From positions 62,001 through 126,000 of the forward strand of contig JADLFW010000012.1 of assembly GCA_020849615.1 (NCBI GenBank): a stretch of DNA of 64,000 nt, in the 5' to 3' direction. This DNA is from Phycisphaerales bacterium (GTDB taxonomy: Bacteria; Planctomycetota; Phycisphaerae; Phycisphaerales; UBA1924). Shown here in pieces: positions 3,866 through 59,872 of this stretch. Below the pieces are notes generated by a model. The model worked only from the letters and a program-made list of their open reading frames with translations, ran no database searches and was not told where the DNA came from. The number at the start of each line of letters is the position of its first letter. The first letter of the stretch is position 1. A program made the translations under genes and the position numbers.

Positions 3866-4864
3866 CTACCGCAGTGACCGCCGGGCCGCATCCAGCGCCA
3901 GGACCTCGAACAGAATGTGCGCCGCGAGGAACGCCGTGATCCCAGCGGGATCGCGGTCGGGCAGCACCTCCACGACATCCGCGCCGGCGAGATTGATCCC
4001 GCGCAAAGACCGCAGCAGGCCCAGCACTTCCGCCGAGGTAAACCCCCCCACCGACGGCGTGCCCGTCCCCGGGGCGTACGCCGGATCGACAACATCGATG
4101 TCGAACGTGAGGTAGGTCTCGCGTCCGCCGAGCTTGCGGACAAAGTCGATGAACGCGCCGGGCCCGTCGGCCCGCCACTGCTCGTAGGTGATGATCGTCA
4201 CGCCCGATCGCTTCGCAAACTCCAGGTCATCCCGCGTGTTCAGCGGGCCCTTCACGCCGATCGAGATCATGGCCTTGGGGTCGATGAACCCCGATTCGAT
4301 CGCCCGGATGAAAGGCGAGGCGTGGCCCCACCTCTCTCCCCACACGGCGTCGACGGTGTCGAGGTGGCTGTCGAAGTGGACAACAGACAGTCCGCCCGCG
4401 GGGCGGCCGCGCCGCTCCCACGTCGCGGCGATGTTGGCGTACGCGATCGAGTGGTCCCCGCCGATGGCGAAGAGCTTGGTGTGGTTGGTGGCCCGCCTCT
4501 CCGAGGCGGGCGCTGTGCCATCGAGCTTCACCGTCCAGTCGATGACCGCGTCGATGTTCTCCTTGCAGTCGTACGGGCGGACCGGCGCATCGCCCGCATC
4601 GGCGAGACTCAGGAGGTCGCACACATCGACGCTGTGCTCGATGTGGAACCGCTTGATGTACTGCGAGGCTTCGCGGATCGCCCGCGGGCCGAAACGAGCC
4701 CCCGGCCGGTAGGTCACGCCCGCATCGAAAGGCACGCCGTAGATGGCCCAGTCGACGGGCCGGTTCTCGGGCGCGACATCCTCCAGCCGCGGATACCGGC
4801 AGAACGTGGCGATGCCGGCGAAGCGGGGAGAGACGCGGGGGTCGGGAAGTACCGTACGGGGCAT
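3866..4864 (-). CDS. Ureohydrolase (arginase/agmatinase family)
   Basis: Binuclear manganese hydrolase of the arginase superfamily, 332 residues. The metal-binding motifs are intact: GGDHS (135-139), DSHLD (165-169) and FDIDVVDPAYAPGTGTP (from 254). It releases urea or a guanidine product from arginine, agmatine or a related compound; the substrate cannot be read from sequence. It begins 31 bp after astD, making it the likely fourth catabolic gene of the ast-like operon, where an arginase activity (arginine to ornithine) would make sense. A perfect palindrome at 4491-4511 encodes residues 118-125 (APASERRA) in the loop before GGDHS. Its overall similarity suggests agmatinase; arginase is the context-based alternative. 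Confidence 0.87.
   Translation of the reverse strand: MPRTVLPDPRVSPRFAGIATFCRYPRLEDVAPENRPVDWAIYGVPFDAGVTYRPGARFGPRAIREASQYIKRFHIEHSVDVCDLLSLADAGDAPVRPYDCKENIDAVIDWTVKLDGTAPASERRATNHTKLFAIGGDHSIAYANIAATWERRGRPAGGLSVVHFDSHLDTVDAVWGERWGHASPFIRAIESGFIDPKAMISIGVKGPLNTRDDLEFAKRSGVTIITYEQWRADGPGAFIDFVRKLGGRETYLTFDIDVVDPAYAPGTGTPSVGGFTSAEVLGLLRSLRGINLAGADVVEVLPDRDPAGITAFLAAHILFEVLALDAARRSLR
4491..4511. repeat. Intragenic palindromic repeat (GTGGC/TCC-loop family)
   Basis: Perfect inverted repeat with 9-bp arms GCCCGCCTC and GAGGCGGGC around the loop TCC, preceded by GGTG. It has the same architecture as the intergenic copies near 10.6, 45.3 and 59.8 kb, but lies inside the ureohydrolase coding sequence without breaking the frame. 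Confidence 0.8.
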
Positions 4865-10639: not shown

Positions 10640-10752
10640 TTCTGTTTGACGGGTGCATTAAGGTGGCCCGGCCCTCCGAGCCGGGCACGGGAACACCGAT
10701 GCAAATGCACGGTTCGGAGAACCGTGCCACGCCGGAATCGATCCATCCAAAC
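10640..10752. repeat. 113-bp bipartite palindromic element, copy 1
   Basis: Two hairpins in a conserved frame. The first, 10666-10686, has arms GCCCGGCCC/GAGCCGGGC with one mismatch and loop TCC. The second, 10707-10727, has perfect arms GCACGGTTC/GAACCGTGC and loop GGA. The flanks (TTCTGTTTGACGG on the left, GGAATCGATCCATC on the right) are also conserved. A second copy of the same length lies inverted at 59760-59872. Both sit between convergent genes and could serve as bidirectional terminators. Confidence 0.88.
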
Positions 10753-45317: not shown

Positions 45318-45545
45318 TGCCCTTCGGGGGTGGCGCGGCTCTCCGAGCCGCGCTGCTCACCGCACGCCGGCGATGAGCGGTGTCCTCGCCGCGAAATCGC
45401 CGGGTTCCTCTTCACGCCGAAGGCGTGCCAGCAGACAGCCGGGGGCAAGTCCGCCGCAGGCGGACCCAGCCCCCGGTTGGCATTCATGAGCGACCTCGAC
45501 CCTGAAGGGGTCGAAATCGCCTCGCCGCACAGCCTAAACTCAACC
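45318..45545. repeat. Mosaic of palindromic repeats after frr
   Basis: The gap between frr and the next gene is almost wholly built from inverted repeats. 45333-45353: arms GCGCGGCTC/GAGCCGCGC, loop TCC. 45367-45403: CCGGCGAT...ATCGCCGG. 45413-45427: CACGCC-GAA-GGCGTG. 45439-45476: CCGGGGGC...GCCCCCGG, enclosing GTCCGCC-GCA-GGCGGAC. 45496-45514: TCGACCC-TGAAG-GGGTCGA. The CCGGCGAT, CACGCC-GAA and GTCCGC modules recur in the same order at 51056-51345. A TAAACT -10-like box at 45535-45540 closes the region. Confidence 0.8.
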
Positions 45546-51055: not shown

Positions 51056-51395
51056 TGCCCACGCCGGCGATAAACGAGTCTTCAAGCGAAGTCGCCGGGT
51101 CTCTGACCGAACCACGAGCGTGAGCGAGTGGGCCACCACCCCGCGCGCACATTCGCGACCGTGAGGGAGCGAGCAACGACGCGCCCGCGCCGGCGATCAG
51201 CCCCGCACCAAAATCGCTGGGCCCGTCAATACCCCCACGGACACCGGGCCGCAGGATTCCTGCCCACTGTTTCACGCCGAAGGCGTGACCGAAAATGGCC
51301 GTGGGCAAGTCCGCTGAAGGCGGACGCCGCCCCCGGGCCGCCCCCAGTCCGTACTTTTCGCTGGATCCGCAAAGCGCACTGCCTGCCGCGACCAC
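51056..51395. repeat. 340-bp gene-free composite of palindromic repeats
   Basis: No gene is seen here. Modules in order: CCGGCGA...TCGCCGG (51064-51098); a CGAGCGTGAGCGAGTGGG stretch (from about 51114); GACCGTGAGGGAGCGAGC (about 51159-51176); CCGGCGAT...ATCGCTGG (51190-51220); TCACGCC-GAA-GGCGTGA (51272-51288); and GTCCGC-TGAAG-GCGGAC (51309-51325), followed by a C-rich run. Three modules repeat the order seen at 45365-45480. Confidence 0.8.
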
Positions 51396-54300
51396 TCACC
51401 CGATCGCGCTCATCCACTCCGCCACCACCTCCATCGGGTGCCGGGCCTGCACCCCCGCCCCATCATGGATCTGGTGCCGGCACGAAGTCCCCGGCGCGAT
51501 CACCACCGCGCCCTCTTCTCCCGCCTTCCGTGCCGCCGGCAGCACCACCTGCTCCCCGATCTTCATCGACAGGTCGTAGCGATCCTTTGTGTACCCGAAC
51601 GACCCCGCCATCCCGCAGCACCCCGAATCCAGCACTGTCAATCCACTCCCGAACACCCGCCGCAGCAGCTTCGCGCTGCTCTCCGCGCCCCACAGCGCCT
51701 TCTGGTGGCAATGCCCGTGGAGGATCGCCTTCTCTGTGCCACTGGCGGCTTGCCCGCCAGTGCTCTTCACGAACTCAACCTTCCTCGGATGCCTCTCCCA
51801 CATCCGCTCCACGAAATCCTCCGGCAGAAACGCCTTCCCCGCCAGTTTCCTCCTCACCGCGATCGGCATCCTCAGCTTCAAACTCAGCCAGTCATCCTTG
51901 AACGCCGACAAGCACGATGGCTCGGCCACCAGCACCGCCACCACACCTTCATCCTCAATCACGGGCCGCAGCCGCCCCAGCGTTGCATCCGCCTCCTCGA
52001 TCGCCTCCGGCAGCAGCCCCATCGAGATCTTGGCCCGGCCGCAGCACCCCGCATCCGCCAGCTCCACCCGGTAGCCCAGCCGCTCCAGCACCGCGCGCGT
52101 CGCCACCCCGATCCCAGGCTCGTTGTACATCGTGAAACAGTCGCCGAACAGCACGACCCGCGGCGCTTTGGGTACCGCGGCTCTCCGAGCCGCGCCTTCG
52201 TCGCTGCCCCCGCGTGTGGCATCGCTCCCTGCCGCGCTCCCCCGGCCCCACCGCCTCTTCAACGACACATCAAACGGCGGCAGGCTCCGCCGCGGATCCA
52301 GCCCGAGCACCGTGTTGATCACCCCGCGCACCAACCCGATCCGCGCCACCGCGTTCGACACCCCCGGCATCATCGCCCCCAGCCGGTTCAACCAGCGGAT
52401 CTCCCCCATGATCCGCGCGGCGATCGGCGCGCCCTTGCCCCGGTACCGCTGCGCGGTGTACTCCGCCTTCAGCTTCGAAATATCGACATTGCTCGGGCAC
52501 TCGGTCTTGCACGCCTTGCAGCTCAGGCACAAATGCAGCGTCCCGATCGTCCCCGGGTCATCCCACACCGGGCCAGTGGCACCGGCAGTTCCAGTGGCAC
52601 CGGCTTCCAGCCGGTGGGCAGTCCCAGTGGCGCCGGATTCCAGCCGGTGTCCTCCAAACCTCTCCACCTGCCCCGTGATCGCCAGCCGCAGCGCGTTGCC
52701 CCGCCCGCGCGTGCTGTGCCGCTCATCCAGCGTCGCCATGTAGGAAGGGCACATCGTCCCGCCCTGCTTCTTGCGGCACACGCCGGCCCCGTTGCACATC
52801 TCGACCGCATGGTCAAATCCGTGCTGCTCCCCGTACTCGAAGTACGTCTCAACGCCCTCCACGACCCCCGAGTCCCGAGCCCCCGACCCCCGTTCCCCCC
52901 CATCCACCCTCAACTTCTCGGTCATGGACTCAAGGGGCCGCGGGTTCATCCCATCCAGGTCCACGATGTTCCCGGGATTCAGGAGATTCGAGGGATCGAA
53001 GATCGCCTTCACCTCCCGGAACGCCCCCATTAGCGCCGGGCCATAGAACCGCTCCAGCAGCGGCCCGCGCACCCGCCCATCCCCGTGCTCCCCCGACATC
53101 ACCCCGCCCAACGACCTCGCCAGGTCCGCCACCTCCACCGCCATCGCCCGCATCCGCCCGCGGTCTTCCTCATCATGCAGATCCAGCAGCGGCCGCACGT
53201 GCAGCACCCCCACCGACGCGTGCGCCCAGTACGCCGCCCGCGTCCCGTAGCGCGACACGATCCCCCGCAGCTCCCGCACGAACCTCGCCAGGTTTTCAAC
53301 CGGCACCGCGTTGTCCTCGATGAACGTAATCGGCTTGCGGTCCCCCGGAATGCCGTGCAGCAGCGGCTCCCCCGCCTTCCGCAGCTTCCACGCGCTCAGC
53401 ATCGCGCCCGCATCGGTGTGCAGTTGCACCGCCGAATCCGGCACCCCGGGCAGCGCCCGCCGTAGCTCCCCGAACTTCGCCGCAAGCTCCCCCGCCGACT
53501 CCATCGCCGAGTACTCGATGTACAGCACAGCCTTCAGCTCGCCGCCGGGCGGCGCCGGCATCAGCTCCACATACCTCCGGTACTCCGCGTTGGCCCGGGC
53601 CAGGTCGATCACCATGTCATCCAGCAGCTCGACCGCCGATGGGCCCGTCCCCAGAATCGGCAGCACCGCCTCGATCGCCTCATCCAGCGTCGCGAACGCC
53701 GCCACCGCCAGCCCCCGCGCCACCGGCCGCGGCATCAGCTTCAGCTCCGCCCCCAGCGTCACCGCCAGCGTCCCCTCGCTCCCGCACAAGAGCGGCGCCA
53801 GGTTCACCTCCCGCCACATCTCAGGCAGCGGGACCGCAAGCCGTGTTTCTGAAACTTCGACCAATCCCGCGCGCGCAACCGCGGATGTTGTTCCACGTGG
53901 AACACCGCGCATCGACTCGAACACCCCCGGCACGCCCTCCAGCTGGTCCAGGATCATGTCCAGCCCGTACCCCGCGTTCCGCCGGATCGTCCTGGGGAAC
54001 CGCGCCCGGATCTCCACCCGATTCCGCCACACCACTTCACACACACGCCGGGTCAGCTCCGCCGCCGGGCCCGCCTCCCGCGCTGCCCCCGGCCCCAGCC
54101 GCAGCCGCGCGCCATCCGCCAGCACCACATCCACCGAGATCAGGTTCTCGCTCGTCCGCCCGTACAGAATCGACCTCGCCCCCGCCGCGTTGTTGCCGAT
54201 GCACCCCCCGATGTTGGCGTGCCGAGAAGTCGCCGGGTCCGGCGCAAAGAACAACCCCATCCCCGCGATCTGGTCGTTCAGATCATCCACCGTCAGCCCC

Positions 54301-54683
54301 GGCTCGACCCGGGCCCGCCGCGCAGCGCCATCCACCTCCACCAACGCCCGGCAGTTGGGAGAAAAATCGATCACCACCGCGTGATTGGTGCACTGCCCCG
54401 CCAGGCTCGTGCCCCCGCCCCGCGGCAGGATCGCCACCCCGCGATCGGCGCAGAACCGCACAGCCCGCGCCGCATCCTCCACATCCGCCGGGATCACCAC
54501 CCCGATCGGTTCCACCTGGTACAACGAGGCATCCGTCGCGTACAGCATCCGGTCGTGGAACCCGAATCGCACCTCACCCGCGACCGTGTTCACCAGCTCC
54601 CGGGCCAGCGCGGCCCGGACTGCTTCGGATGCGACCGAATCGCGATTCGAGGAACACCCCGGAAGCACGGGCAAGGAGGGCAT
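51396..54683 (-). CDS. YdiJ-type FAD-linked dehydrogenase with Fe-S and CCG domains (D-2-hydroxyacid/2-hydroxyglutarate type)
   Basis: 1095 residues. Order: FAD-binding type 4 domain (about 55-270; ILPRGGGTSLAGQ, ANIGGCIGNNAAGARS); FAD-oxidase C-terminal domain (about 290-560; SGEHGDGRVRGPLL); two Fe-S cysteine sets (MCNGAGVCRKK...CP near 628, LCLSCKACKTECPSN near 718); and two CCG domains (DAGCCGRAK, LDSGCCGMAG). The architecture equals E. coli YdiJ, a D-2-hydroxyglutarate dehydrogenase feeding the respiratory chain; lactate or glycolate specificity is possible. Three palindromic repeat insertions lie in the coding sequence, including HRLESGATGTA-HRLEAGATGTA between the Fe-S sets. A -10 box directly before the ATG suggests a leaderless message. 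Confidence 0.88.
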   Translation of the reverse strand: MPSLPVLPGCSSNRDSVASEAVRAALARELVNTVAGEVRFGFHDRMLYATDASLYQVEPIGVVIPADVEDAARAVRFCADRGVAILPRGGGTSLAGQCTNHAVVIDFSPNCRALVEVDGAARRARVEPGLTVDDLNDQIAGMGLFFAPDPATSRHANIGGCIGNNAAGARSILYGRTSENLISVDVVLADGARLRLGPGAAREAGPAAELTRRVCEVVWRNRVEIRARFPRTIRRNAGYGLDMILDQLEGVPGVFESMRGVPRGTTSAVARAGLVEVSETRLAVPLPEMWREVNLAPLLCGSEGTLAVTLGAELKLMPRPVARGLAVAAFATLDEAIEAVLPILGTGPSAVELLDDMVIDLARANAEYRRYVELMPAPPGGELKAVLYIEYSAMESAGELAAKFGELRRALPGVPDSAVQLHTDAGAMLSAWKLRKAGEPLLHGIPGDRKPITFIEDNAVPVENLARFVRELRGIVSRYGTRAAYWAHASVGVLHVRPLLDLHDEEDRGRMRAMAVEVADLARSLGGVMSGEHGDGRVRGPLLERFYGPALMGAFREVKAIFDPSNLLNPGNIVDLDGMNPRPLESMTEKLRVDGGERGSGARDSGVVEGVETYFEYGEQHGFDHAVEMCNGAGVCRKKQGGTMCPSYMATLDERHSTRGRGNALRLAITGQVERFGGHRLESGATGTAHRLEAGATGTAGATGPVWDDPGTIGTLHLCLSCKACKTECPSNVDISKLKAEYTAQRYRGKGAPIAARIMGEIRWLNRLGAMMPGVSNAVARIGLVRGVINTVLGLDPRRSLPPFDVSLKRRWGRGSAAGSDATRGGSDEGAARRAAVPKAPRVVLFGDCFTMYNEPGIGVATRAVLERLGYRVELADAGCCGRAKISMGLLPEAIEEADATLGRLRPVIEDEGVVAVLVAEPSCLSAFKDDWLSLKLRMPIAVRRKLAGKAFLPEDFVERMWERHPRKVEFVKSTGGQAASGTEKAILHGHCHQKALWGAESSAKLLRRVFGSGLTVLDSGCCGMAGSFGYTKDRYDLSMKIGEQVVLPAARKAGEEGAVVIAPGTSCRHQIHDGAGVQARHPMEVVAEWMSAIG
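51740..51762. repeat. Intragenic palindrome in the YdiJ-type gene (1)
   Basis: Arms CACTGGCGG/CCGCCAGTG with a 5-nt centre, next to GTGCC (GGCAC on the other strand). In the protein it encodes part of STGGQAASGTE between conserved blocks. Confidence 0.7.
52176..52194. repeat. Intragenic palindrome in the YdiJ-type gene (2)
   Basis: Arms CGCGGCTC/GAGCCGCG with loop TCC, nearly identical to the intergenic hairpin at 45333-45353. It encodes ARRAA-type residues in the variable linker ahead of the first CCG domain. Confidence 0.8.
52573..52652. repeat. Intragenic triple repeat in the YdiJ-type gene (3)
   Basis: Three tandem units beginning CCAGTGGC(A/G)CCGG at 52573, 52591 and 52624. The last two carry hairpins CACCGGCT-TCC-AGCCGGTG (52598-52616) and CGCCGGAT-TCC-AGCCGGTG (52631-52649). 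Read through in frame they encode HRLESGATGTA, HRLEAGATGTA and GATG. Confidence 0.82.
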
Positions 54684-59759: not shown

Positions 59760-59872
59760 GTTTGATGGATCGATTCCGGGGTGGCACGGTTCTCCGAACC
59801 GTGCATTTCGATCGGCTGTTCCATGCCCGGCTCGGAGAGCCGGGCCACCCAAAGGCATCCGTCGAACAGGAC
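59760..59872. repeat. 113-bp bipartite palindromic element, copy 2 (inverted)
   Basis: Hairpins at 59784-59804 (arms GCACGGTTC/GAACCGTGC, loop TCC) and 59825-59845 (arms GCCCGGCTC/GAGCCGGGC, loop GGA), both perfect. The flanks (GATGGATCGATTCC on the left; GTCGAACAGGA on the right) match the reverse complement of copy 1 at 10640-10752, with equal length. It again lies between convergent genes. Confidence 0.9.

Follow-up and report, generated by a model that had tools for sequence, protein, structure and literature searches.

What are the short palindromes that interrupt the coding sequence of two genes of this planctomycete: mobile repeats that inserted in frame, or part of the genes' own sequence? 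An earlier note on this DNA had placed hairpins at four sites inside the genes for a YdiJ-type dehydrogenase and a ureohydrolase, and all four were present within the two open reading frames (ORFs). The window, i.e., the whole stretch of 64,000 nt that was analyzed, contains the following host genes and hairpins.

3866..4864, minus strand: gene for a ureohydrolase of the arginase/agmatinase family (host gene 2), 332 aa; ORF and Pfam Arginase
4487..4511, plus strand: R2b REP, GGTGG CCCGCCTC-TCC-GAGGCGGG C, antisense in the ureohydrolase gene, in the linker before HTKLFAIGGDHS
10666..10727, strand unspecified: intergenic R1 element, an inverted pair of REP-like hairpins in a 126-bp element
45329..45353, plus strand: intergenic REP, GGTGG CGCGGCTC-TCC-GAGCCGCG C
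51396..54683, minus strand: gene for a YdiJ-type FAD/4Fe-4S dehydrogenase (host gene 1), 1095 aa; ORF and Pfam FAD_binding_4, FAD-oxidase_C, Fer4, and CCG
51736..51765, plus strand: R7 palindrome in linker 3 of the YdiJ gene, GTGC CACTGGCGG-CTTGC-CCGCCAGTG CTC; loop of 5 bases
52171..52194, plus strand: R2c REP, GGTAC CGCGGCTC-TCC-GAGCCGCG, in linker 2 of the YdiJ gene
52575..52586, plus strand: R3 half unit, AGTGGCACCGGC, 12 nt, in linker 1 of the YdiJ gene
52593..52616, plus strand: full R3 REP unit, AGTGGCACCGGCTTCCAGCCGGTG, antisense to the YdiJ gene; encodes HRLEAGAT
52626..52649, plus strand: imperfect R3 REP unit, AGTGGCGCCGGATTCCAGCCGGTG, in the YdiJ linker of the full R3 unit
52575-52649: R3 cluster as a whole, AGTGG CACCGGCT-TCC-AGCCGGTG, with two full units and the half unit
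59784..59845, strand unspecified: second copy of the intergenic R1 element in the window

Repeat families and their copy numbers

The earlier note had regarded all these hairpins as being of one design. The hairpins fall into several families, and the loop of R7 has five bases. The "three units" which it had described at 52573-52652 are two full R3 units, the second with an imperfect stem, and a half unit of 12 nt. R2b and R2c share the centre TCTCCGA.

We then determined how often such hairpins occur. A search of 1.55 Mb of the genome for a TGG foot, an 8-bp stem with one mismatch allowed, and a 3-nt loop returned 130 hairpins, 67 of them with the loop TCC; the next most frequent loop was found five times. 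In the whole genome TGGCNCNNNTCTCCGANNNGNGC had 62 matches, 31 on each strand, and its control had none. Exact R3 cores were present in 17 copies (reversed-pattern control, 0), and the 15-nt centre of R3 had 19 whole-genome matches. R2c was represented by 11 perfect cores in the 1.55 Mb, mostly with the GGTAC tag. Across 61 genomes from the family and the order, the R7 design was matched 19 times, in 8 of the genomes, with a control of 3; its copy number in this genome was low (3). Two contigs start within R1 elements (G000:C6:31 and G000:C17:32), so that repeats probably break the assembly and the copy numbers may be underestimated. Elsewhere in the same 1.55 Mb, 16- to 20-mers of GACTACCTCGAGTTCCTGAACCTGTACGA, possibly a coding repeat (DYLEFLNLY in one frame), were very frequent in many places, and tandem CCCAGTG arrays were also seen.

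In their build, these families resemble the GTAG-type REP superfamily. The tag of R2a, R2b, R3, and R4 is GTGG, which together with GTRG is an accepted variant of GTAG, while the GTAC tag of R2c falls outside the variants listed (PMC3733652). R2, R2c, and R3 have 8-bp stems and a TCC loop, within the 6- to 9-bp stem and small loop of the superfamily, and the 62 and 17 whole-genome matches agree with its multicopy, mainly intergenic dispersal.

In-frame insertions and the families that enter genes

To learn whether the segments were inserted, the two proteins were aligned with orthologues, the nearest of which were about 60 to 75% identical, with none from another species of the genus among the genomes searched. 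This genome's segments were missing from 29 of 29 YdiJ orthologues, whose linkers were shorter, and the REP peptide was missing from 29 of 29 aligned ureohydrolase/agmatinase orthologues, which also had shorter linkers, the R2b segment adding about 9 aa relative to most of them. The statement of the earlier note that the hairpins keep the frame and fall in variable linkers was thus borne out, and the result that it had named as a refutation, orthologues carrying the same peptides, was not obtained. In a structure model of YdiJ built with relatives, confidence was below 50 at residues 677-703 (R3 linker), 815-837 (R2c), and 974-982 (R7), i.e., at the three REP-encoded segments, which are predicted to be disordered loops; other stretches below 50 included the N terminus, 257-281, 579-584, and 595-609.

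Hairpins inside genes are not confined to these two proteins. In topA, an inverted R2 pair adds about 10 aa relative to nearly all of 29 relatives; in miaA, R3 and R2a inserts, the latter of about 13 aa, are absent from about 29 relatives; and in mnmG, an R3 unit in the nucleotide-binding fold adds 9 aa relative to the E. coli MnmG structure. Judged by these sequence comparisons, the hairpin segments are insertions in every gene that was compared with relatives.

One site was hit repeatedly. Linker 1 of YdiJ carried REP-like hairpins in at least five lineages. Besides the R3 cluster in this genome, G030 has a single R3-like unit, oppositely oriented, and G014 has a palindrome of the R7 type; among 46 distinct linkers examined, an R2-like unit was present in L155 and an inverted R3-like pair in L170. 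The differing families and orientations suggest independent events and hence a place where insertions are readily accepted, not a peptide passed on by descent.

The families differed in their location. In the 1.95 Mb, 17 of 50 R2-R4 hairpins but none of 33 R1 hairpins lay deep in called genes, that is, more than 150 nt from the start and more than 60 nt from the end (Fisher's test, P = 5e-5, or 0.004 if R1 pairs are counted once); the genes were called by our own caller, and for some of these hairpins the start of the gene may have been over-called (MoxR-like gene, C3:20180, and the N-terminal extension of lpd). The earlier note had taken one family to be both intergenic and intragenic. This is true of R2 and R3 taken singly, but not of the two intergenic pairs of the window (10666-10727 and 59784-59845), since these are R1, which was never found deep in genes. 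Even R2-R4 were under-represented there, at 17 of 50 against the 71% expected by area.

A difference in stop codons accompanies this pattern. The 126-bp R1 element has stops in four of six frames, whereas R2, R2c, R3, R4, and R7 have no stop in any of the six; a change of GTGG to GTAG in R3 or R2b would create a TAG. With the tag GTGG, GTAC, or GTGC instead of the TAG-bearing GTAG, an insertion that adds a multiple of three nucleotides to a permissive loop can therefore be tolerated in either orientation. Length modulo 3 was discarded as the reason for the absence of R1 from genes, because 126 is a multiple of 3 and stop codons explain the absence better. The idea that R1 is a REPIN was also dropped, as a longer alignment revealed a 126-bp element with long, matching ends (CTAGGTCGTGTTTGA ... 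TCAAACAGAACCTAG) and the two REP-like hairpins inside. We infer that the intragenic and intergenic pattern was caused by selection and not by target choice. A stop-free tag and stem would then be a simple explanation, at the sequence level, of which REP families can enter genes and which are kept out.

The explanation that we prefer, with a probability of roughly 0.8, is that the segments are REP elements that inserted in genes, were kept because the genes stay intact, and were probably moved by RAYTs. As single-stranded DNA hairpins, the REPs would be cut and joined by RAYT-type transposases with HuH and Tyr motifs, a reaction established for other members (PMC8266576). An insertion would be tolerated if it falls in a permissive loop, consists of stop-free units, and changes the length of the gene by a multiple of three nucleotides. 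Small mobile hairpins appear to have landed repeatedly in functional genes of this planctomycete and to have left them intact. Together with the transposase genes that lie in frame inside essential enzymes of relatives (see below), this suggests that mobile DNA of this type lives inside genes.

That the segments are instead ancestral coding sequence, or chance products of GC-rich codons and repetitive linkers that happen to form hairpins, is extremely improbable. Hairpins as such are common at 69% GC: 62 perfect hairpins of any sequence were found in the window, barely above the 37 to 55 obtained in Markov simulation, so the significance is carried by family identity and not by the ability to form a hairpin. 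The linkers are, moreover, variable in all orthologues. Nevertheless, units with exactly the same cores are scattered through the genome, within genes and between them, with controls near zero, and the alignments lack the segments throughout. The intragenic hairpins could also have been retained because they themselves play a role, in RNA stability, pausing, termination, or protein binding, and not be tolerated mobile DNA at all. REPs of other bacteria have been described as RNA- or protein-binding elements (PMC3733652), and the stems here are perfect, yet the hairpins occur in unrelated genes, in both orientations and several frames, are absent in relatives, and are found in genes less often than expected by area. 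We therefore consider such retention unlikely, and REP insertion without loss of gene integrity remains our preferred reading.

RAYT genes within core genes of relatives

We next looked for the mobilizer of these REPs. This genome has six Y1_Tnp genes, none of them with R2-R4 found beside it and none in the clade of embedded RAYTs described below; a tblastn search of 1.95 Mb of the genome (43%) found no closer RAYT, the family model being weak for the embedded clade. Since the six genes are of other types, lack adjacent R2-R4, and tblastn found none closer, the mobilizer may have been lost or may lie in unsampled sequence.

Three transposase loci in this genome were noted separately. A RAYT-type Y1_Tnp gene lies 1.4 kb beyond the end of the window (G000:C12:127429-127647; L006, L013), with no REP-like hairpin of at least 7 bp found adjoining it. 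An IS200-like transposase gene (G000:C14:47057-47395; L003, L025) has the palindrome families CCAGGGGCTGAAGCCCCTGG and TCCGCCCTCCGGGCGGA on both sides, the former of which also occurs inside the mnmG ORF. At G000:C5:96895-97071 (L005, L022), a cytidylyltransferase, a SEPNRERERAG-type repeat, and a RAYT are encoded in a single ORF of 465 aa. This ORF was left out of the nested cases because the RAYT lies at its C terminus, where simple read-through may account for it.

In relatives, all but one or two of which seem to be represented by MAGs or draft genomes, the picture was different. Five of the ten searched for Y1_Tnp contained a total of seven RAYT genes in frame within core genes, each as one open frame of host, RAYT, and host (loci L293, L294, L296, L297, L298, L313, and L314, in miaA, valS, leuS, and rdgB). 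The ORFs are as follows.

rdgB with embedded RAYT: G014, 509 aa; G012, 399 aa; G033, 418 aa
leuS with embedded RAYT: G012, 1230 aa; G029, 1297 aa
miaA with embedded RAYT: G002, 573 aa
valS with embedded RAYT: G002, 1529 aa

Thus, rdgB was hit in three genera, leuS in two, and miaA and valS in one each. All five ORFs that were scanned with Pfam contained the host family and Y1_Tnp (PF01797, above the cutoff) in a single frame, and the motifs HVH and Y..xNP were visible in the embedded RAYTs, with P changed to A in G033. Alignments to the solved structures of RdgB and MiaA split around the RAYT insert. To avoid picking only long frames, nesting was also determined independently of frame, as a match on both sides to one G000 protein: over 39 RAYT loci, six were nested, all in sense and in frame. 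The comparison used G000 proteins encoded in 1.95 Mb and can therefore overlook nesting in genes outside that set, as it did for valS. One further candidate, a 620-aa frame on G002:C19, was left out because its upstream part looks like a spurious frame.

Most of the inserts have REPs at their ends. The RAYT in miaA, in both leuS genes, and in rdgB of G012 and G014 is bounded by a single REP in inverted copies; in G033 rdgB the right terminal REP is degenerate, and the valS case has another repeat type. The terminal REP is R3-like in G014 rdgB (42 exact R3 cores occur in that genome), of R2 design in G029 leuS, and in G012 leuS carries the GGTAC tag and TCTCCGA centre of R2c. In the tree, six of the seven nested RAYTs formed one clade (support, 99/91) together with a single long-branched, free-standing member, and the valS RAYT was of another type. 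The three rdgB RAYTs were 49 to 56% identical to each other; within one genome, the rdgB and leuS RAYTs were 33% identical. All three are inserted at one and the same turn of RdgB, a turn that has no insert in G000 (VLAEPTGKVLATTRG), and the leuS RAYTs share one site in two genera. The shared rdgB site may reflect either descent from one old insertion or site-directed homing. As a separate observation, the intergenic repeats GAGCGTGAGCGAG and GACCGTGAGGGAGCGAG at about 51060-51180 of the window are like the SRDRQGA-type repeat beside the valS-embedded RAYT.

Embedded RAYTs would be the autonomous partners of these REP families and would obey the same insertion rules as the REPs, with host and RAYT presumably translated as one polypeptide in which the transposase forms an inserted domain. 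We are evenly divided on the broader proposal that this RAYT clade is itself gene dwelling: that it resides with its terminal REPs in loops of conserved enzymes (RdgB, LeuRS, and MiaA) as a host-expressed inserted domain, has kept its catalytic motifs, occupies the same site across genera by descent or homing, and has REPs that spread as small in-frame inserts into other genes. In the usual description, RAYTs are free-standing, domesticated genes flanked by REPs. If the proposal is true, a RAYT in an essential gene would be costly to lose and would be expressed through its host, and this could account for the persistence of RAYTs without growth in copy number. The natural domain insertions in LeuRS, ValRS, MiaA, and RdgB would then be open to biochemistry.

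Alternatively, the RAYT inside rdgB, leuS, or miaA might be excised from the RNA or from the protein, in the manner of an IStron or an intein, so that the host enzyme would never be a fusion. Conserved enzymes hit at one site in several genera are what inteins and IStrons would also give; however, Pfam revealed no Hint/intein domain at an E value of 0.001 in any of five ORFs, a comparison of seven loci with Rfam at an E value of 0.1 gave neither a group I or II intron nor any other match, and an intron would not need an open host frame. We thus judge removal to be very unlikely. An origin of the embedded RAYTs as artefacts of assembly or binning, or as decayed insertions in dispensable duplicates, has in its favor that the genomes are mostly MAGs. 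Against it stand the number of cases (seven, from five genomes), each of them contained in one contig with its frame open and kept in register, the recurrence of one rdgB site in three genera and one leuS site in two, and the preserved HuH and Tyr motifs, so that it seems highly unlikely. We accordingly return to the reading of the embedded RAYTs as genuine insertions, with the transposase probably retained in the host protein.

Comparison with known systems

Rickettsia palindromic elements (RPE), which the earlier note had named as the precedent, are likewise palindromes found in frame in many genes, and we know of no dedicated transposase for them. RPE-4 and RPE-6 are CGTC tagged and RPE-1 is longer (PMC3733652), whereas the tags here are GTGG, GTAC, and GTGC, and none is CGTC. 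RPE are therefore a precedent for the phenomenon but not the closest relatives, the GTAG/GTGG REPs with intragenic copies in Opitutus and others being closer (PMC3733652).

Those GTAG-superfamily REPs (Di Nocera et al. 2013, PMC3733652), such as GTAG-20 of Opitutus terrae with its GTGG tag, are tetranucleotide-tagged perfect stem-loops like the ones described here, with several families per genome and some copies in frame in genes, including those for tRNA synthetases and tRNA modification. Published work already covers REPs inside genes, among them a GTGG-tagged family, and the occurrence of REPs in planctomycetes (PMC3733652). The elements of this genome differ in their sequences, in their mostly GTGG and GTAC tags, in being stop-free in six frames, and in that the partner RAYTs of relatives lie inside genes. 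R1 is similar to REPINs and MITEs (PMC3116915) in its inverted pair of REP-like hairpins, but it has its own long matching ends and is distinct from the intragenic families.

Inteins resemble the embedded RAYTs as mobile enzymes carried in frame in conserved genes at a fixed site in several genera, and IStrons share with them an IS200/IS605 parentage. In contrast to both, no splicing domain or intron was found here, and from its sequence the insert appears to stay in the protein.

The embedded genes also resemble REPtrons, i.e., TnpAREP or RAYT elements (PMC8266576, PMC6006769, PMC2817692), in which a Y1 transposase gene of the HuH/Tyr type is likewise bordered by REPs. For subclass 2.4, REPs in frame within tnpAREP genes have been reported, and TnpAY1 proteins that were longer than expected were set aside as fusions or as errors of annotation (PMC6006769), so that embedded RAYTs could have been hidden. 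In the open-access literature that we searched, we found no account of RAYTs in frame inside unrelated core genes. While intragenic REPs were already known, what appears to be new here is the RAYT genes in frame within core genes of relatives, where, in contrast to REPtrons, the whole REP-RAYT unit is contained in frame in an unrelated core gene.
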